A DNA stretch of 64,000 nucleotides from Flexistipes sp. (GTDB taxonomy: Bacteria; Chrysiogenota; Deferribacteres; Deferribacterales; Flexistipitaceae), in the NCBI RefSeq assembly GCF_036172515.1, contig NZ_JAXKVW010000003.1, positions 107,001 through 171,000 of the forward strand, given 5' to 3'. Positions within the stretch are counted from its first letter, which is position 1, and every line of letters begins with the position of its first letter. The translations under genes and the position numbers were made by a program. Below, in pieces: positions 35,588 through 44,527 of this stretch. The notes under the pieces were generated by a model. The model did not search any database. It saw only the letters and a program-made list of their open reading frames with translations, and was not told the origin of the DNA.

Positions 35588-36625
35588 ATGGAAGCGAATG
35601 TTTTTCAATTGATATGGTTTGGTCTATGGGGACTTTTGTGGGCAGTATACTTTATGCTGGACGGATTTGATCTGGGAGCAGGTATACTGCACCCGTTTAT
35701 TGCAAAAAATGATACGGAAAGACGGATGGTTATCAATACATTGGGACCCGTGTGGGACGGAAATGAGGTATGGTTAATTACCGCAGGAGGTGCTACTTTT
35801 GCAGCATTTCCGACCACATATGCCTATATGTTCAGCTATCTTTACACCCCTTTGCTTATTATTCTTTTTGCTTTGATTATCAGAGGTGTGTCTTTTGAAT
35901 TCAGAGGGAAAAAAGATTCGGAAAGCTGGAAGAAAGGATGGGACTTTGCCATCTTTATTGGCAGCTTTATTCCAGCATTGCTGTTTGGCGTGGCTTTCGG
36001 GAACATTTTCCAGGGCCTGCCTATAGATGCGGCAGGTTATCATGGAAATATTTTTACGCTGCTCAATCCATACGGCATTTTAACCGGTATACTTTTTGTC
36101 TGCCTGTTTCTTGTTCATGCTTCTTTGTGGCTGTCTATAAAGGCAACGGGTGATTTGAGAAAAAGAGCTCAGAAGCTTGCCAAAAAGCTCTGGCCAATTC
36201 TTTTGATTGTAGCGGTTCTTTTTCTTGTTCACACCTGGTTTGCCACAAACCTGTATGATAACTTTTTTGCAGCACCTGCTGGGTTTGTGATACCTGTACT
36301 TGCCGTTGTTGCATTGCTTTTGAGTTATGTGTTTATGAATTCATCGTATGTCAAAGCATTCTATGCATCATGTGTTACAATCCTTATGGTGGTTTTTACG
36401 GGGATTTACGGACTGTTTCCTAATCTTATCCCGTCGAGTATCGATACAGCATACAGCTTAACTGCCATAAACTCATCCTCAAGTGTATATACACTTAAAA
36501 TTATGACGGTGGTTGTGGCTATTTTTGTTCCTATTGTCCTGATTTATCAGATTTGGACATACAAGGTTTTCAGTGATCCCGTAACGGAAGAAGAAATATA
36601 TGATGAGGAAGCGGAAGCTTATTAA
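35588..36625 (+). CDS. cydB: Cytochrome bd oxidase subunit II
   Basis: 345-residue integral membrane partner of CydA with eight to nine hydrophobic helices. Typical motifs are FMLDGFDLGAGILHPFIAK, LGPVWDGNEVWLITAGGATFAAFP and LIIRGVSFEFRGKKDS. It lacks heme ligands. AGGAGG precedes the ATG. No cydDC or cydX gene is visible in the window. A strong terminator lies a few bases after the stop. Confidence 0.95.
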   Translation: MEANVFQLIWFGLWGLLWAVYFMLDGFDLGAGILHPFIAKNDTERRMVINTLGPVWDGNEVWLITAGGATFAAFPTTYAYMFSYLYTPLLIILFALIIRGVSFEFRGKKDSESWKKGWDFAIFIGSFIPALLFGVAFGNIFQGLPIDAAGYHGNIFTLLNPYGILTGILFVCLFLVHASLWLSIKATGDLRKRAQKLAKKLWPILLIVAVLFLVHTWFATNLYDNFFAAPAGFVIPVLAVVALLLSYVFMNSSYVKAFYASCVTILMVVFTGIYGLFPNLIPSSIDTAYSLTAINSSSSVYTLKIMTVVVAIFVPIVLIYQIWTYKVFSDPVTEEEIYDEEAEAY

Positions 36626-36911: not shown

Positions 36912-37718
36912 ATGCTAAATTTTAGAAAAATTGTTTCGCTTGTAATGCTGCTGTCATTTACTGTAGTGGTTTATTCAGGTGTGTTTCTTTTTATTGTACC
37001 CGAGGGAAAAGTTGCCTATTGGGTGAACTGGCAGCTTTTAGGACTTAATAAAACTCAATATGCTGAAGTCCATGACGTGGGGGTTTTATTATTTCTCGTT
37101 AGTTCCGTTTTGCATATTTATTTAAATTGGAATGCGATATTGAATTACCTTAAAAACAAATCAAAAAGAATAGTTTTGTTTACGCCAAATTTTATTGCAG
37201 CATTGCTGATAACTTTGATTTTTACTGCAGGGAGTCTTTATAAATTTCCGCCTTTTGAGAGTTTTTTAAACATTGCCACCAGCATGGATAAATATTGGGC
37301 ACAAGAATACGGAACACCTCCTTTTGGGCATGCCGAACTTTCAGGATTAAAAAGTTTGTGCAGCAAGATGAACTTAGATTTTGAAAAGGCAATAAAACTT
37401 CTTGAGGATAAGGGGATAGCTGTTAAAGACGAAAATGAAACACTTTTGAAAATATCTGAGAGAGCCGGGATGACCCCTGCTGAAGTGTACAAGATTATAA
37501 AACCGGCCAAGATTGAAGGAAGTGAAGAAGTCCCCACAGGACTGGGGAAAATGACTCTGGGGGAAGTGTGCAAAAAGTATGATATTGATATAAATAAAGC
37601 TTTGAAGATTTTGAAGAGCAAGGGATTCCGCGTTACTCCTGAATCACAGATGAAAGAGCTTTCAGAACAAAAAGGAAAGCTACCTATGGATATCTATGAG
37701 CTAATGAAGAATAAATGA
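36912..37718 (+). CDS. Membrane protein, DUF4405-like, with two tandem C-terminal repeats
   Basis: 268 residues. The N-terminal half has three hydrophobic helices (about 8-30, 55-75, 92-110) with a histidine pair in EVHDVGVLLFLVSSVLHIYLNW, resembling DUF4405/cytochrome-b-like heme-binding membrane proteins. The soluble C-terminal half has two related units of about 55 residues, SGLKSLCSKMNLDFEKAIKLLEDKGI (about 145-205) and MTLGEVCKKYDIDINKALKILKSKGF (about 213-265). Each has a conserved Cys and a LxxxGIxV/LxxxGFxV turn. The function is unknown; a membrane heme protein feeding or sensing the quinone pool is a reasonable guess. ATG follows GGAGGG. Confidence 0.75.
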   Translation: MLNFRKIVSLVMLLSFTVVVYSGVFLFIVPEGKVAYWVNWQLLGLNKTQYAEVHDVGVLLFLVSSVLHIYLNWNAILNYLKNKSKRIVLFTPNFIAALLITLIFTAGSLYKFPPFESFLNIATSMDKYWAQEYGTPPFGHAELSGLKSLCSKMNLDFEKAIKLLEDKGIAVKDENETLLKISERAGMTPAEVYKIIKPAKIEGSEEVPTGLGKMTLGEVCKKYDIDINKALKILKSKGFRVTPESQMKELSEQKGKLPMDIYELMKNK

Positions 37719-38151: not shown

Positions 38152-38367
38152 TCCTAATCTTTTTGAATTTTATCGTTTTTTGGTTATAGCCACAGGCTAA
38201 TTTAACCGTTTCCCTGGCATATAGCTCATACAGTATTAATTACAATAATATCCCCTTTAAAAGTATTTTGCATGATTTTTCGATTATTGTTATCATTTAA
38301 GCAGGTATATAAACAAGAAAACAGCAAAAAAAGAATTCAAATATGTAAACAAGGAAGTACGAAAGAC

Positions 38368-39243
38368 ATGAAACAAAAGATAAACGGCAGAACGATTGAA
38401 ATTTCCAACCCGCATAAAGTGTTTTATCCAAATGCAAACATTACCAAAAGAGAAATTTTGAATTATTACGACCGTATTGCGGAATACATGCTCCCGCACA
38501 TCAGAAACCGGCTTGTGGTAATGCAACGGTTCCCCGAAGGGATCGGCGAGGAAGGTTTTTATCACAAACAGGTACCGGATTATTTCCCCGAATGGGTGCA
38601 AAGGAAAACGGTTACACTACGGAAAGGGGAAAAACAGGATATTGCAATTGTTAATGAAAAAGCCGATATTATTTATATGGCCGAGCAGGGGGCGATTACG
38701 TTTCATATTTGGCTGTCGCAAAAGGACAATATCGAAATGCCTGATAAACTGATTTTTGACCTCGACCCTCCCAAATCCGGTGAATTCAGCGAAGTGAAGT
38801 TTGCTGCTTATAAATTGCGTGACTTGTTCAAGGAAATGGGTTTTGTGACTTATGTTATGACGACCGGATCAAAGGGGTTGCATGTCGTTATTCCGATAAA
38901 ACCTGAATATGACTTTGATATTATCCGGCAATATGTTAGAGATGTACTCAGGGAGTTGGTAAAGAAATATCCGGATCGATTTACGCTCGAGCCCCGAAAA
39001 GATAAAAGGCAGGGGCGCGTGTTTTTGGATTATCTGCGTCATGCCTTCGGGCAAACGTCCGTGGCTCCATATTCTCTTCGTCCTGTTGAAGGTGCTCCGA
39101 TTGCCACGCCGCTTGAATGGGAGGAATTGCCGTATATTGAGAATTCACAGAAGTACCATATGAAAAATATTTTCAAGCGACTTTCGCAAAAGAAAGACCC
39201 TTGGAAAGATTTCAAACTTCACAGAAAATCATTGGATATCTGA
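38368..39243 (+). CDS. Stand-alone LigD polymerase domain (archaeo-eukaryotic primase type)
   Basis: 291-residue DNA/RNA polymerase domain of the kind found in LigD of bacterial non-homologous end joining. Present are SNPHKVFYPNANITKREILNYYDRIAEYMLPHI, HKQVPDYFPEWVQR, the catalytic aspartates in LIFDLDPPK, TTGSKGLHVVIPI, and VFLDYLRHAFGQTSVAPYSLRPVEGAPIATPLEWEEL. It lacks ligase and phosphoesterase domains, and no Ku or ligase gene is in the window. It could fill gaps with nucleotides in end joining or base excision repair with the adjacent glycosylase. ATG 38368 is preferred (AAGGAAG upstream), giving family-standard length. Arginine codons are mostly CGN, against AGA/AGG elsewhere in the window. 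Confidence 0.88.
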   Translation: MKQKINGRTIEISNPHKVFYPNANITKREILNYYDRIAEYMLPHIRNRLVVMQRFPEGIGEEGFYHKQVPDYFPEWVQRKTVTLRKGEKQDIAIVNEKADIIYMAEQGAITFHIWLSQKDNIEMPDKLIFDLDPPKSGEFSEVKFAAYKLRDLFKEMGFVTYVMTTGSKGLHVVIPIKPEYDFDIIRQYVRDVLRELVKKYPDRFTLEPRKDKRQGRVFLDYLRHAFGQTSVAPYSLRPVEGAPIATPLEWEELPYIENSQKYHMKNIFKRLSQKKDPWKDFKLHRKSLDI

Positions 39244-39244
39244 T

Positions 39245-40042
39245 ATGCCTGAGCTTCCTGATGTAACCTATTTTAAGCATTATATTGACCGAGTTGCGCT
39301 CCATAAAAAAATCTCAGCTGTTCAATGCGGAGATGAGCGCGTCTTGAAAAATACGAATTGTCAGGGGTTGAGTCGCATACTCAAAGGAGAGCAGTTTGCA
39401 GCAACAAAAAGGCGTGGAAAATTTTTGATAATAAATCTCGCCAACTCCGGGAAAATGTTGATTTTACATTTCGGAATGACCGGTAATATTTCTTATCGTG
39501 AGGGTGAAGCCAAGACGGAGGATGAGAAGAAATATTCTCAATTGACAATTGAATTTCATGACGAATCGCGTCTGTTCTGGATTAATAAACGTCTGCTGGG
39601 TTCCGTGTATCTGGTGGATAAGGTTGATGAAGTTGCAACGATTAAGGAAATGGGGCCGGATGCATTGGAGCTTTCCGGAAATTTATTTTTGAAACTTTTG
39701 TCAGAACACGAGCGGAAGAATATCAAAGCGTTCTTAATGGATCAGTCAAATATAGCCGGCCTGGGAAACGAGTATTCCAATGAATTGTTATTTCAGGCGG
39801 ATATTGATCCGCACAGAAAGATTAAAGGTTTAAGCAACAACGAGCGGAAAAAGATTTATAAGGTGATGCGTGATATACTTGAGAAAGCAATTAAGATCGG
39901 CGTACCGGCTAATCCGTTTCCGGATGACTGGCTTTTGGCGCATATGGATGATATGACATGCCCTAAAGACGTGAAGCATAATTTGAAAAAAGAAAGAATT
40001 GCGGGACGCACGGCAGTCTATTGTCCGGTACATCAAGTGTAG
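39245..40042 (+). CDS. Fpg/Nei family DNA glycosylase
   Basis: 265-residue formamidopyrimidine/endonuclease VIII-type glycosylase/AP lyase. MPELPDV gives the Pro2 nucleophile and Glu3. Helix-two-turn-helix segment IKAFLMDQSNIAGLGNEYSNELLFQADIDP is clear. The C-terminus DMTCPKDVKH...GRTAVYCPVHQV corresponds to the zinc finger but keeps C-x5-H and C-x2-H rather than four cysteines. It starts 1 bp after the LigD-Pol stop, so the two act together. Damaged-base specificity is unknown. Arginine is again mostly CGN, so both genes probably arrived together. Confidence 0.88.
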   Translation: MPELPDVTYFKHYIDRVALHKKISAVQCGDERVLKNTNCQGLSRILKGEQFAATKRRGKFLIINLANSGKMLILHFGMTGNISYREGEAKTEDEKKYSQLTIEFHDESRLFWINKRLLGSVYLVDKVDEVATIKEMGPDALELSGNLFLKLLSEHERKNIKAFLMDQSNIAGLGNEYSNELLFQADIDPHRKIKGLSNNERKKIYKVMRDILEKAIKIGVPANPFPDDWLLAHMDDMTCPKDVKHNLKKERIAGRTAVYCPVHQV

Positions 40043-40305: not shown

Positions 40306-42252
40306 ATGGCTAAAGTTTTGTATGGTTTTTTCAAAGGTGAGGTAATAGATAACAGGGGGAAGTCTAAAGATAAATGGACTGATGCCCCTGTGAAAATCGA
40401 TGAAGACTTCAACGGTAAAAAATTAAAGACGTTTGTTGATTGGGACGGTTTTCTTGTTTTTGAGGAGGAAACCGATATTTTAAACGCACTGGCAGAGTAT
40501 ATGAGCGAAATAAGTACCTATGGGTGCTGTGGAAGATGTTTTCCCGGCAGAGTGGGAACAAAAATTGTTTCAGAAGAACTTTTTAAACTCCGGGAAAATT
40601 TCAGCAAAGAAAAATTGAATCTTTTGCGTGATTTGTGTGTTTCCATTAACGATTCGGCGAAGTGTACCGTTGCTCCAACCTCTGTGATTCCTGTTCTGGG
40701 ATTTATAGATAATTTTGCTGATGAGGCTGAGAATAATTCCAATGCTGAAGCCGGCAAGTATGTCCGTCATTTAACAGCTCCATGTACAGCCGGGTGTCCG
40801 GCTAATGTAAAGATACCTCAGTTTATTGAGGCTATCAAGGATTTCAGGTTTTTGGAAGCACTGGCTATCATCAGAGAAACTATGCCTTTGCCCGGTGTCT
40901 GCGGGAGAGTTTGTCCGCATCCGTGCGAAGAAAACTGTAGAAGGGGGCTTACTGAAGACCCTGTAAGTATAATGGTTTTGAAGCGTACTCCATGGGATTA
41001 CGAATATTACCACCACAAAAACCCCGATATCCCTGTATACAGAGAGCCTACAGGTAAAAAGGTTGCCATTGTGGGAGCCGGTCCTGCGGGGCTGACTGCG
41101 GCATATTATCTGGCTCAGTTGGGACATTCGGTAAAAATTTACGATATGATAAGCGAGCCCGGAGGCATGGTTGCAAGGGGAATCCCTGACTACAGGCAGC
41201 CCAGAGACTTGCTTAGAAGAGAAGTTGATATAATAAAATCTCTCGGTGTGGAAATTCAATACAATACCAAACTCGGTGAAGATATATTTTTGGATGATTT
41301 GAAAGCGGATTATGATACGGTTTTGATTGGAATTGGTGCCTGGAAAAGCCGTGATATGGGCGTTGAAGGTGAGAAAGAAGGATATGAGGGAGTAGTTGCA
41401 GGTGGTATTTATTTCCTCAATGATTTTGCCGCCGGAAGAGAAGTAAATATTGGAAAAAAAGTGCTCGTTGTCGGTGGTGGTAACACTGCTATTGACTGTG
41501 TGAGAACAGCGATTCGTATGGATACCGAAGAGGTGAGTCTGATATACAGAAGAGCAAGGGAACAGATGCCTGCTGAGGACTATGAAATAGAGGATGCTAT
41601 TGAAGAGGGTGTTAATTTTCATTTTCTGGCAAATCCGGTTAAAATACTGGCGGAAAACGGAAAGGTTGTCGGAGTGGAATGTGTGAAGATGAAGCTGGGA
41701 GAGCCGGATGACTCAGGGAGAAGACGCCCCGTACCCATTGAAGGTTCAAATTTCGTGCTGGAGGTTGATACTGTTATCCCTGCGATCGGACAGTATCCTG
41801 ACCTGAGTTTTTTAAGTGAAAAAGATGGAATCGATGTTACAAAATGGGATACGATAAAAGTTAAAGATGATTTATATATTACTGATGTTGAGGGTGTGTT
41901 TTCCGCCGGTGACTGTGAATGGGGACCTAATACTGTTGTGAAAGCAATAGGTGCCGGCAGATGGGCGGCAAAAATGATGGACAGATACATGATGGAAGGA
42001 AATGTATATCTGACCGATGAAGAAAAGCTTGAGCTGACCCTTTATAACAGTAAAGTTTTTGATAAGAATGAAAAACTCTGCGATCCTGCTACTATCGAAA
42101 GAGTGCACCAGGAGAAACTATCCCCAGAAGAAAGAGTTGCCCATTTTGAAGAAATAGAAAAACCTTATAGTGAAAAGCAGGCTTATATGGAAGCTACACG
42201 TTGCTTAAGATGCATGAGAATGGCCATGGTTGGGCTGGAAGAAAATAAATAG
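40306..42252 (+). CDS. sfrB: NADPH oxidoreductase, SfrB-like beta subunit
   Basis: 648-residue soluble flavoprotein that resembles SfrB of the Geobacter SfrAB NADPH-dependent Fe(III) reductase. The N-terminal 130 residues look like the FeS end of NuoF (YGCCGRCFPGRVGT, Cys74, Cys75, Cys78 and Cys120; the third NuoF Cys position is Gly). The rest is GltD/NfnB-like: CTAGCPANVKIPQFI, CGRVCPHPCEENCRRG, FAD site VAIVGAGPAGLTAAYYLAQLG, NADPH site VLVVGGGNTAIDCVRTAIR, and FSAGDCEWGPNTVVKAI. It likely oxidises NADPH and passes electrons through SfrA. ATG 40306 follows GGAGTGG. The partner gene begins 14 bp after the stop. Confidence 0.75.
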   Translation: MAKVLYGFFKGEVIDNRGKSKDKWTDAPVKIDEDFNGKKLKTFVDWDGFLVFEEETDILNALAEYMSEISTYGCCGRCFPGRVGTKIVSEELFKLRENFSKEKLNLLRDLCVSINDSAKCTVAPTSVIPVLGFIDNFADEAENNSNAEAGKYVRHLTAPCTAGCPANVKIPQFIEAIKDFRFLEALAIIRETMPLPGVCGRVCPHPCEENCRRGLTEDPVSIMVLKRTPWDYEYYHHKNPDIPVYREPTGKKVAIVGAGPAGLTAAYYLAQLGHSVKIYDMISEPGGMVARGIPDYRQPRDLLRREVDIIKSLGVEIQYNTKLGEDIFLDDLKADYDTVLIGIGAWKSRDMGVEGEKEGYEGVVAGGIYFLNDFAAGREVNIGKKVLVVGGGNTAIDCVRTAIRMDTEEVSLIYRRAREQMPAEDYEIEDAIEEGVNFHFLANPVKILAENGKVVGVECVKMKLGEPDDSGRRRPVPIEGSNFVLEVDTVIPAIGQYPDLSFLSEKDGIDVTKWDTIKVKDDLYITDVEGVFSAGDCEWGPNTVVKAIGAGRWAAKMMDRYMMEGNVYLTDEEKLELTLYNSKVFDKNEKLCDPATIERVHQEKLSPEERVAHFEEIEKPYSEKQAYMEATRCLRCMRMAMVGLEENK

Positions 42253-42266
42253 CTTGGGGTTTGTTT

Positions 42267-44492
42267 ATGCCTGAAATATATATTAACAACAAAAAATACC
42301 CTTTTAACGAAGGGGATACTGTACTTGAAGTGGCCAAAAGGAATAATATTTATATTCCAGTAATGTGTTATCTGGAGAAAATAACTCCCACCGGTGCATG
42401 CAGGTTCTGCCTGATTGAAATTGAAGGAATAGATAAGCCCGCGGCGGCCTGTGTAACCTATGCTTTGGACGGAATGAAAGTTTTTACCGATACCGAAAAA
42501 GTAATAAAAGACAGAAAGAGGATGATGGACTTTATTCTGATAAAGCACCCTCTTGACTGTCCTGTTTGTGATAAAGCCGGGGAATGCATGCTGCAGGATA
42601 TGGCATATGAGTTTGGCATTAATGAAGAAAGTGTCCCTTCAGTAAAGCCCGACAAACCGGTTTTTGACTGGAATTTTATAATAAATGATACGAATTTGTG
42701 TGTAATGTGCGAAAGGTGTGTGAAGGTCTGTCATGAGATAACCGGCTGTTCTGCACTGAAGATAGAGGAGCGGGGATTTAACAACATAATAAACACAACC
42801 GACGGCACAGAGCTCAACTGTGACTTCTGCGGGCTCTGTGTCGATTATTGCCCTGTTGGTGCTTTACTGGATAAACCTTATAAACACAGTGTAAGATCCT
42901 GGGATTTGGATAAGAAAAACACATTTTGCAATATGTGTCCTGTGGGTTGTGAAATTGAGGTAAATATTCATGATAATGAGATATTCAGATGCAGATCCAC
43001 TGAAAACAGTTTTATCTGTTCACTGGGAAGGTATGCATTTAAACATCCGGAACATAAGGACAGGATTGAAACACCTTTGATGAAAAGTTCCGGGAAGCAT
43101 TCCGAAGTAAGCTGGAGCGATGCCCTGGATGAGTTTAAAGACCGATTAAGCAATATTAAAGAGCGCTATGGGGACGAATCCATAGTACTGCTTCTGGGAA
43201 GCAGACTCAGCAATGAAGCTGTTTTTGGATACAAAAAACTTTCGGACGAATTGAACATTAATAAAGTTGTAGCTGATATAGAATTTGAGAACGGAAGTTT
43301 TTATAAGCTGCACAAGGAAAAGTTTGATACTTATGAAAATATCGGAAGCCTTGAAGGGATAAAAAGCTCAGATTTGATTTTTGTTATAGGTTCTGATTTG
43401 GCCAATGAGGCATTAGGTGTCAAATGGAATGTTATGAACGCTGTTATTCATAACAATGCAAAACTGGTCACGATCGGTGCACAGAAATATGAATACGATT
43501 ATTTTACTGATGCCAGTCTCCTTGCCGACTACGGTAATTATGCAGGTATTTTTGAAGATATAAAAACGGCCGGTGACGATATCCCTGCCAGTATAAGGGA
43601 ATATATAGACCAGGCAGAACATGTGACATTTATTGTCGGTAATGAATACATCTCCTCTGAAAAGCAGCCTGAAAGTATCTATGCTTTCTATGATTATGTT
43701 GGCTCTGATAAAGTGGAAAACTTCTTCCTCGTAAGTGACAAGGCGAATATTACTGCTCTTGTTAATTCGGGTATTCTGGATAACGGATATACTCCTGCAA
43801 AACTGAATAAAGAAATGGTTAATTCTAAAATTAAAGCGGTTTTGGCTGTTGGTTTTTATCCTTCTGAAACTTACGGGGCATATAAATCCTTAAATAAATC
43901 AATTGACAATGTTGATATGCTTGTTTCTGTGGACATGTATAAAAATAAATTTAACTCCAATGCCGATATTATCATGCCGGCGCTTACTTCTCTTGAAAGT
44001 GAAAGCAGCTACACATCTCTTGATGGCAGATTAATAAAAACGGATGTTGTGCATGAGCATAAATATTCAGCACTTTCCGATGTTAATATTTTGTCCAAAA
44101 TGGGGGCTTTGTTTGGCATTGAACTGCCTGAGTCAGCACCGGAATTCTGGAATGAAAATATAGCAGGACAAAACGGTTATCCGCAAATGGATTTTTATGA
44201 GATTGATGGTTTTGTGAGAAAAGAGAATAAGTCTAATGTCAACAAAACGACCTTTTCCTACCAAAAACCGGCTGAGGGCTCTGTAGAAATTTTTGTAAAC
44301 GCCAGATATCACAATAACTATTTGTCCACAAAGGCTGTTGTAGAGAAAGATGTAGACGGATATTTGAAAAAATATTATTTTGATGTTGATGAGACGGTGC
44401 TTTCCGGAAAGGATGCCTGCTATGACGGCAAATGCAGTATAAATGACGAAATAGCAAAAGGAACGGTTCTGATACCCAAGAATCTGAAGTAA
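42267..44492 (+). CDS. sfrA: NADPH oxidoreductase, SfrA-like alpha subunit (NuoG-like)
   Basis: 741-residue FeS protein of the NuoG/molybdopterin oxidoreductase family. N-terminal [2Fe-2S] ferredoxin (MCYLEKITPTGACRFCLIEI), His-Cys3 site (HPLDCPVCDKAGEC), two [4Fe-4S] sites (CVMCERCVKVCHE, CDFCGLCVDYCPVGAL) and the domain-entry cluster FCNMCPVGCEIEV follow. The large C-terminal part has the molybdopterin-oxidoreductase fold but, as in NuoG, no obvious Mo ligand. With SfrB it would link NADPH to FeS acceptors. In Geobacter, sfrAB mutants are impaired in acetate metabolism and NADPH balance. ATG 42267 follows GGGGT; a TTG at 42261 is alternative. Confidence 0.75.
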   Translation: MPEIYINNKKYPFNEGDTVLEVAKRNNIYIPVMCYLEKITPTGACRFCLIEIEGIDKPAAACVTYALDGMKVFTDTEKVIKDRKRMMDFILIKHPLDCPVCDKAGECMLQDMAYEFGINEESVPSVKPDKPVFDWNFIINDTNLCVMCERCVKVCHEITGCSALKIEERGFNNIINTTDGTELNCDFCGLCVDYCPVGALLDKPYKHSVRSWDLDKKNTFCNMCPVGCEIEVNIHDNEIFRCRSTENSFICSLGRYAFKHPEHKDRIETPLMKSSGKHSEVSWSDALDEFKDRLSNIKERYGDESIVLLLGSRLSNEAVFGYKKLSDELNINKVVADIEFENGSFYKLHKEKFDTYENIGSLEGIKSSDLIFVIGSDLANEALGVKWNVMNAVIHNNAKLVTIGAQKYEYDYFTDASLLADYGNYAGIFEDIKTAGDDIPASIREYIDQAEHVTFIVGNEYISSEKQPESIYAFYDYVGSDKVENFFLVSDKANITALVNSGILDNGYTPAKLNKEMVNSKIKAVLAVGFYPSETYGAYKSLNKSIDNVDMLVSVDMYKNKFNSNADIIMPALTSLESESSYTSLDGRLIKTDVVHEHKYSALSDVNILSKMGALFGIELPESAPEFWNENIAGQNGYPQMDFYEIDGFVRKENKSNVNKTTFSYQKPAEGSVEIFVNARYHNNYLSTKAVVEKDVDGYLKKYYFDVDETVLSGKDACYDGKCSINDEIAKGTVLIPKNLK

Positions 44493-44498
44493 ATATAG

Positions 44499-44527
44499 AA
44501 AAACCGGAGTTCACGCTCCGGTTTTTT
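44499..44527 (+). terminator. Terminator after sfrA
   Basis: Perfect stem AAACCGGAG (44501-44509) and CTCCGGTTT (44516-44524), 6-nt loop, then T-run. Confidence 0.9.

Follow-up and report, generated by a model that had tools for sequence, protein, structure and literature searches.

SfrAB of Geobacter sulfurreducens (GSU0509-GSU0510), an NADPH:Fe(III) oxidoreductase, combines a GltD-like with a NuoG-like subunit (PMC7483475). Work cited in PMC13186404 gave the Geobacter enzyme a new assignment, to acetate metabolism; the same paper reports that sfrB of Deferribacter thermophilus has a near neighbour whose similarity to SfrA is 29.5%. PMC2669807 reports that, among Geobacteraceae, an NADP isocitrate dehydrogenase of monomeric type and GSU0509-0510 are both conserved in the four species that respire and absent from two Pelobacter species. 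The nearest experimentally known case that we found comes from Moorella: in its NADPH-dependent formate dehydrogenase (sfrB2, sfrA2, fdhF3), sfrB2 codes for the beta subunit (PMC13040438). In StnC, K170 is an unusual ligand of cluster C7, next to the FAD, and this FAD is reported to be non-bifurcating (PMC10482914). Here we analysed a pair of adjacent SfrB-like and SfrA-like genes in a window of 64,000 nt from Flexistipes sp. (assembly GCF_036172515.1, contig NZ_JAXKVW010000003.1, positions 107,001 to 171,000). The pair has the SfrAB layout, already named in this group for D. thermophilus (PMC13186404), is real and conserved, and carries a cluster-motif change that extends through the phylum Deferribacterota; judged from its sequence, it is probably a non-bifurcating NADPH oxidoreductase.

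The pair was read in a genome of 2.47 Mb (G000) using open reading frames (ORFs) called from the window DNA; relatives place this genome in the Deferribacterota, the nearest named matches being two Deferribacteraceae metagenome-assembled genomes (MAGs; 86% and 75% identity) and one Calditerrivibrio MAG (74%). The SfrB-like subunit (648 aa), in which a NuoF C-terminal Fe-S domain is followed by a GltD-type FAD/NADPH module, is encoded at 40306-42252 on the forward strand, as are all features of the pair given below; its ATG at 40306 has GGAG immediately 5' (the ORF listing starts at TTG 40294 instead) and its stop ends at 42252. After a gap of 14 nt follows the SfrA-like NuoG-type subunit at 42267-44492 (741 aa from ATG, or 743 aa if TTG 42261 is used), for which ATG 42267 is the likeliest start: the relatives' starts read M-x-x-I in 23 of the 24 shown and M-x-x-V in one. 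A terminator-like hairpin followed by T-rich sequence lies at 44498-44527 (-17.6 kcal/mol, z -4.84; none of 200 shuffles equally good), a stem that a consensus terminator scanner placed on the minus strand only, and promoter matches were no commoner than in shuffles (15 versus a mean of 13.3, standard deviation 3.5). An earlier note on this DNA had given the coordinates of both ORFs correctly; its view of a tight two-gene unit with its own terminator is confirmed by the short gap and the hairpin, and the NuoF-end/GltD fusion and NuoG-like partner that it described are borne out by Pfam domains.

The altered motif lies in the N3-like domain of SfrB (NuoF C-terminal type, residues ~39-143; 40420-40734), which aligns with the C-terminal parts of HydB, StnB and NuoF. 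In NuoF-type proteins, cluster N3 is held by C-x2-C-x2-C and a distant fourth cysteine, a form visible in the alignments made here. At the place of the canonical S-C-x2-C-x2-C, the window protein has C74-C75-G-R-C78-F-P-G81 (40525-40548), and Cys120 (40663-40665), the counterpart of the fourth N3 ligand of NuoF, is invariant in the Deferribacterota and the other aligned rows (row L155 of the residue-conservation alignment is cut before the first motif cysteine). The CC-x2-C-x2-G form was found in all 35 Deferribacterota SfrB read, from 41 SfrB genomes with G040, G042, G043, G045, G046 and G047 left out, versus none of 30 Bacillota relatives with the same domain order, whose canonical motif was recorded by script in 26 and from the printed sequence in L123, L130, L131 and L132; the Collinsella relative with N3 and GltD parts is likewise canonical. 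Cys74 and Gly81 are as the earlier note described them, and their presence in 35 of 35 proteins indicates that the change is not chance. That note spoke of one lost cysteine, which holds for Gly81; what is found is rather a fixed phylum motif, C74-C75-x2-C78-x2-G81...C120, in which four cysteines remain. Fixed in the phylum members read, the motif is also that of SfrB in genus g12, where SfrA is missing, and is therefore most simply taken as older than the SfrA loss there. No description of the motif change, of the SfrB-only genus or of the Nfn pattern given below was found in the literature searched, which included few subscription papers, so these appear to be new; a fixed change in a NuoF-type cluster motif is a clear target for spectroscopy and mutagenesis.

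Pfam domains of SfrB comprised NADH_4Fe-4S (NuoF C-terminal, PF10589) at residues 62-143, Fer4_20 at 143-233 and Pyr_redox_2 at 251-551, and the FMN/NADH domain PF01512 was not found by Pfam; those of SfrA were Fer2_4, NADH-G_4Fe-4S_3, Fer4_Nqo3 and Molybdopterin. Among the NCBIfam matches listed (25 of 66 for SfrB, 25 of 25 for SfrA), none was above cut-off. The Fer4_20 region (40732-41004) has two [4Fe-4S] sites formed by C160, C164, C203, C207 and C211 with C633 and C636, the clusters being assigned by homology; C633 and C636 belong to a C-terminal CxxC (42202-42213) whose counterpart is N-terminal in NfnB and C-terminal in StnC. Lys226 (40981-40983), a lysine in 19 of 19 plus 13 of 13 rows, aligns with StnC Lys170 (StnC numbering in the SfrB alignment was counted by hand). 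The FAD/NADPH two-Rossmann domain (Pyr_redox_2, 41056-41958) has a second motif of the GxGxxA type, which points to an NADP(H)-type site if the motif is read after PMC7483475, and among solved chains, those giving the best alignment to the GltD region were the NADPH arms of Stn/Nfn-Bfu enzymes. Because Lys226 and Arg297 match StnC, whose FAD is reported as non-bifurcating (PMC10482914), a non-bifurcating flavin would be expected in SfrB. SfrA carries [2Fe-2S], HxxxCxxCx5C and 8-Cys dicluster domains (42273-42866), an N7-like CxxCxxxC site (42915-43007) and a molybdopterin-oxidoreductase-like domain (PF00384, residues 268-613; 43062-44099). In family f5, the N7-like cysteines of SfrA are missing in two sequences read (L091 6715-8961 and L092 8077-10263) and the pattern was not at the expected place in ten rows scanned, with the other cluster motifs kept.

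Across 50 Deferribacterota genomes, in which presence was judged by match length and score, SfrB was found in 41 (families f1-f5, f7 and f8; partial in G045, G046 and G048) and was absent from nine (f6, f9 and f10), and SfrA was found in 36, adjacent to SfrB in all 36 genomes having both. Family f7 has no complex I NuoH (0/15), keeps SfrB in 15 of 15 genomes (two partial) and keeps SfrA in 11 of 15. All four g12 genomes of this family have SfrB without SfrA, no NuoG-type domain and one PF01512 protein each, of RnfC size. The ratio of non-synonymous to synonymous substitution (dN/dS) of g12 SfrB was ~0.12 in three pairs made from three of the four genes (L101 left out), pointing to purifying selection, and the cluster residues checked are kept except His155, which is Asn in 2/4. 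The g12 genomes, whose SfrB lies at L098 4872-6836, L099 2366-4327, L100 7175-9136 and L101 1-1961, have no SfrA, complex I (NuoH) or PF10588 protein. The fifth SfrB genome without SfrA is G048, where SfrB stands at a contig end.

Counting matches above 200 bits, we found NfnA, the small subunit of NfnAB, in 15 of 50 genomes (9/12 in f5, 3/4 in f6 and 3/3 in f10), that is, in six of the nine genomes without SfrB versus nine of the 41 with it; in the window genome NfnA was not found (best match 84 bits), and G029 has an NfnB-type gene near a contig end. Two candidates were set aside: a G048 fragment resembling NfnA (50% identity over 109 residues, 118.7 bits) has internal stops and was not counted, and 1,100-aa proteins of G018, G019 and G023, considered as Stn-like replacements of Nfn, match SfrB over the GltD part only and sit among genes that read as purine/xanthine-dehydrogenase-like. 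Monomeric NADP isocitrate dehydrogenase (PF03971, also matched in one of 14 control genomes) occurs in 27 of 50 genomes, 24 with SfrB and the other three with NfnA only, a pattern that echoes the Geobacteraceae report in PMC2669807. Citrate synthase is present in 40 of 50 genomes, including 13/15 of f7 and 3/3 of f10, the latter without SfrB.

We consider it rather likely that the pair is a soluble, non-bifurcating NADP(H) oxidoreductase passing electrons to a low-potential carrier, most likely ferredoxin. We favour this reading because SfrB has no FMN/NADH domain and no NuoE, NuoF, FdhB or NfnA gene was found by tblastn in any of 18 neighbourhoods; because SfrB-type subunits are NADP(H) arms elsewhere, in Moorella (PMC13040438), at Bacillota FdhA loci and beside a Collinsella hydrogenase; because family f7, lacking NuoH, retains SfrB throughout and SfrA mostly; and because of the NfnA counts and the presence of SfrB or NfnA in every genome with the monomeric isocitrate dehydrogenase. 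The domains, cluster residues, gene pairing, distribution and presence in a family without complex I are sequence-based. For the acceptor, the direction and the order of electron transfer, we infer the following course. NADPH would pass a hydride to the FAD in the GltD module of SfrB, from which single electrons would move through the two SfrB [4Fe-4S] clusters, with the Stn-type Lys226 on the cluster nearest the FAD, and then, by way of the N3-like domain and the clusters of SfrA, reach a one-electron carrier of low potential, ferredoxin being the likeliest; this carrier could feed Rnf or a ferredoxin-capable complex I. The pair is probably reversible and would keep NADP(H) in balance. In acetate oxidation through the tricarboxylic acid (TCA) cycle it would re-oxidise NADPH from NADP isocitrate dehydrogenase, with SfrB as the essential half and SfrA as a partner open to loss. 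If true, this would explain how anaerobic acetate oxidisers hand TCA-cycle NADPH back to respiration.

Several points weigh against this reading. Nine f5 genomes hold both SfrB and NfnA and two f9 genomes hold neither, and the nine with both indicate that the two are not strict alternatives. PF03971 was found in none of the 15 f7 genomes, where SfrB is kept and other isocitrate dehydrogenases were not looked for, so that a link between SfrB and this dehydrogenase is not general. The distribution follows family lines, with few independent losses; an AlphaFold model of SfrB from four sequences had a mean predicted local distance difference test score (pLDDT) of 42.7, too low for interpretation; and ferredoxin, although the most likely acceptor, is one that we infer.

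The same sequence evidence would also suit a pair that works mainly in the reverse direction, as a ferredoxin:NADP+ reductase making biosynthetic NADPH, a possibility that we regard as doubtful. NfnAB can act as a ferredoxin-dependent NADPH supplier for biosynthesis, and its small subunit occurs in most genomes without SfrB; SfrB persists, too, in f7, a family that gave no match to the monomeric NADP isocitrate dehydrogenase. Such a role fits less well with the finding that all 27 genomes with this dehydrogenase have SfrB or NfnA, and the Geobacter work cited in PMC13186404 and PMC2669807 favours NADPH oxidation. It is possible, though unlikely, that Deferribacterota SfrB is an enzyme by itself, its rewired N3-like cluster (C74-C75-x2-C78 and C120, no Cys81) serving as a direct ferredoxin port; one genus would then have been free to drop SfrA and keep SfrB, and SfrB would represent a third, non-bifurcating coupling of NADP and ferredoxin besides NfnAB and the FNR-type enzymes. 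As an Fe(III) reductase of metal respiration, the role that goes with the historical name of SfrAB and that the earlier note had raised, the pair is highly improbable: neither protein has a membrane or haem part among its Pfam matches, the pair is kept in a family without complex I, and the reassignment of the Geobacter enzyme, in work cited in PMC13186404, argues against metal reduction, for which we found no support here.

Docking of SfrAB on complex I as an alternative NADPH input module instead of NuoEFG would make use of its N3-like and NuoG-like parts, and in three Bacillota genomes an SfrB-like gene heads a nuo operon, or diverges from it, and NuoEFG was not seen among the genes of that operon. 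This candidate looked strong at first and was weakened by an FdhA-like gene downstream: the last gene of these nuo operons codes for a formate dehydrogenase, and this can explain why an SfrB-like gene is present. Considering also that 11 of the f7 genomes without NuoH keep the pair, that complex I of the window genome has its own NuoE, NuoF and NuoG and that SfrA forms a separate clade, we judge docking to be quite improbable. SfrA and the complex I NuoG of the same phylum, the source of all NuoG included, formed two clades with 100% support each in the Shimodaira-Hasegawa-like approximate likelihood ratio test (SH-aLRT; 26 rows), so the grouping with complex I that the earlier note had considered was not seen. 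For this tree 21 of 30 SfrA loci passed a scripted filter on pattern and length, and 13 of them were used; all six f7 loci, L069, L074 and L075 were dropped, and the Bacillota NuoG-like L181 was not captured. In the SfrB tree (quick method), a branch with SH-aLRT 100 splits 19 of the 35 Deferribacterota rows from 13 other rows; L004 probably repeats L020, and Collinsella and L042 are long branches.

The statement that no other complex I genes accompany the pair is true of its neighbourhood; elsewhere in the genome, on another contig, there is a complete nuo operon. The earlier note had proposed a separate nuo operon lacking NuoEF as partner, which we rejected: the operon found carries NuoE, NuoF and NuoG, and the three PF01512 proteins of the genome are this NuoF, an RnfC-like protein and an FdhB-like NuoEF fusion (the last two identified by reading sequence and neighbours). 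The complex I NuoF has two extra C-terminal [4Fe-4S] motifs, so that the complex appears to fit the 'Nuo-Bfu' type, predicted to use ferredoxin and NADH and listed for Deferribacteres (PMC9304861). Like bifurcating HydB, this NuoF (L050 6985-8775) begins with a thioredoxin-like part and ends with a 2x[4Fe-4S] domain. A split Stn-type bifurcating transhydrogenase, in which SfrB and SfrA together correspond to StnC and borrow a NuoE/NuoF core encoded elsewhere, could draw on this HydB-like NuoF or on the FdhB. Both NuoF-type proteins have partner genes of their own, however, in the six f7 genomes tested (the four of g12, G037 and G039) the single PF01512 protein is as long as an RnfC, and SfrB already has the N3-like domain that in Stn is part of StnB, which makes this arrangement very unlikely. 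The question of what SfrAB reduces in the cell can be approached through natural contrasts in this phylum: one family has the pair and no complex I, one genus has SfrB only, and some lineages have NfnAB and lack SfrB.

The gene neighbourhoods of the pair, compared in 18 loci of which 14 had both genes, mostly vary from family to family. There are exceptions: f1 and f3 (L052, L089) both have cytochrome bd-type genes no more than ~4 kb upstream, and in f3 and f8 (L089, L097) SfrA is followed by a small gene, FmdB-like by reading. The only tblastn signal at the 14 two-gene loci was the N3-like part of SfrB itself; a scan of viral contigs gave no relative, and the matches in plasmid records all stayed below 60% identity. 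Upstream of the pair in the window, a LigD-type primase-polymerase gene and a formamidopyrimidine-DNA glycosylase gene lie in this order, one base apart (38272-40042), a couple that occurs in the sister genome as well (L087). Farther upstream, a DUF4405 membrane protein whose C-terminal part is soluble (36912-37718) adjoins a gene read as cytochrome bd-type (35588-36625).

SfrB-type genes of Bacillota are paired with FdhA, or stand beside a nuo operon ending in FdhA, and where FdhA is the neighbour, the N3 cysteines of the SfrB-type proteins are canonical; in the window genome the neighbour is the NuoG-type SfrA and FdhA lies on another contig. In three Bacillota loci (L186 87-14927 in G404, L187 559-15552 in G338 and L188 377-15276 in G055), the nuo genes of a complex I that lacks NuoEFG and is 11-subunit-like are found together with an SfrB-type and an FdhA-like gene, which suggests a link between NADP-formate dehydrogenase and complex I; the SfrB gene of L188 is divergent, and NuoC, NuoD and the first FdhA frames of L187 were not resolved by ORF picking. 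The FdhA-like gene consists of two frames parted by TGA in 4/4 loci checked (L145, L147, L186 and L188), and this TGA was taken as selenocysteine-type. In Collinsella, the gene with N3 and GltD parts adjoins an [FeFe] hydrogenase. NuoF-GltD fusions of 1015-1041 aa by NuoE and [FeFe] hydrogenase occur at L153 4690-7737 (G355) and L154 4781-7906 (G102), with two flavin/nucleotide sites per chain.

Compared with the complex I NADH module (NuoEFG, here of Nuo-Bfu type), the pair shares the N3-like and NuoG-like domains but lacks PF01512 and NuoE and is retained where complex I is missing. With NfnAB it has in common a GltD-type subunit for NADP(H) and FAD that carries two [4Fe-4S] sites; unlike NfnB, which has a Glu ligand at the proximal cluster and an N-terminal CxxC, SfrB has Lys and a C-terminal CxxC, and no NfnA gene stands beside it. 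The Moorella formate dehydrogenase likewise has an SfrB-type beta subunit, its partner there being the formate dehydrogenase. The likeness to Geobacter SfrAB proposed in the earlier note stands as one of layout, adjacent GltD-type and NuoG-type genes compared by description rather than by sequence, with D. thermophilus as a precedent in PMC13186404. StnABC/Nfn-Bfu enzymes of Sporomusa and Thermococcus (PDB 8oh5, 9bov and 9n5u) share GltD and NuoG parts with the pair, and in StnC the residues K170 and, near the FAD, R239 correspond to Lys226 and Arg297 of SfrB, both proteins having the CxxC at the C-terminus. In Stn/Nfn-Bfu, GltD and NuoG are in one chain and a bifurcating BfuBC (NuoE/NuoF) core is present, whereas here the chains are split, the N3-like domain is on the GltD subunit and no core gene lies nearby.

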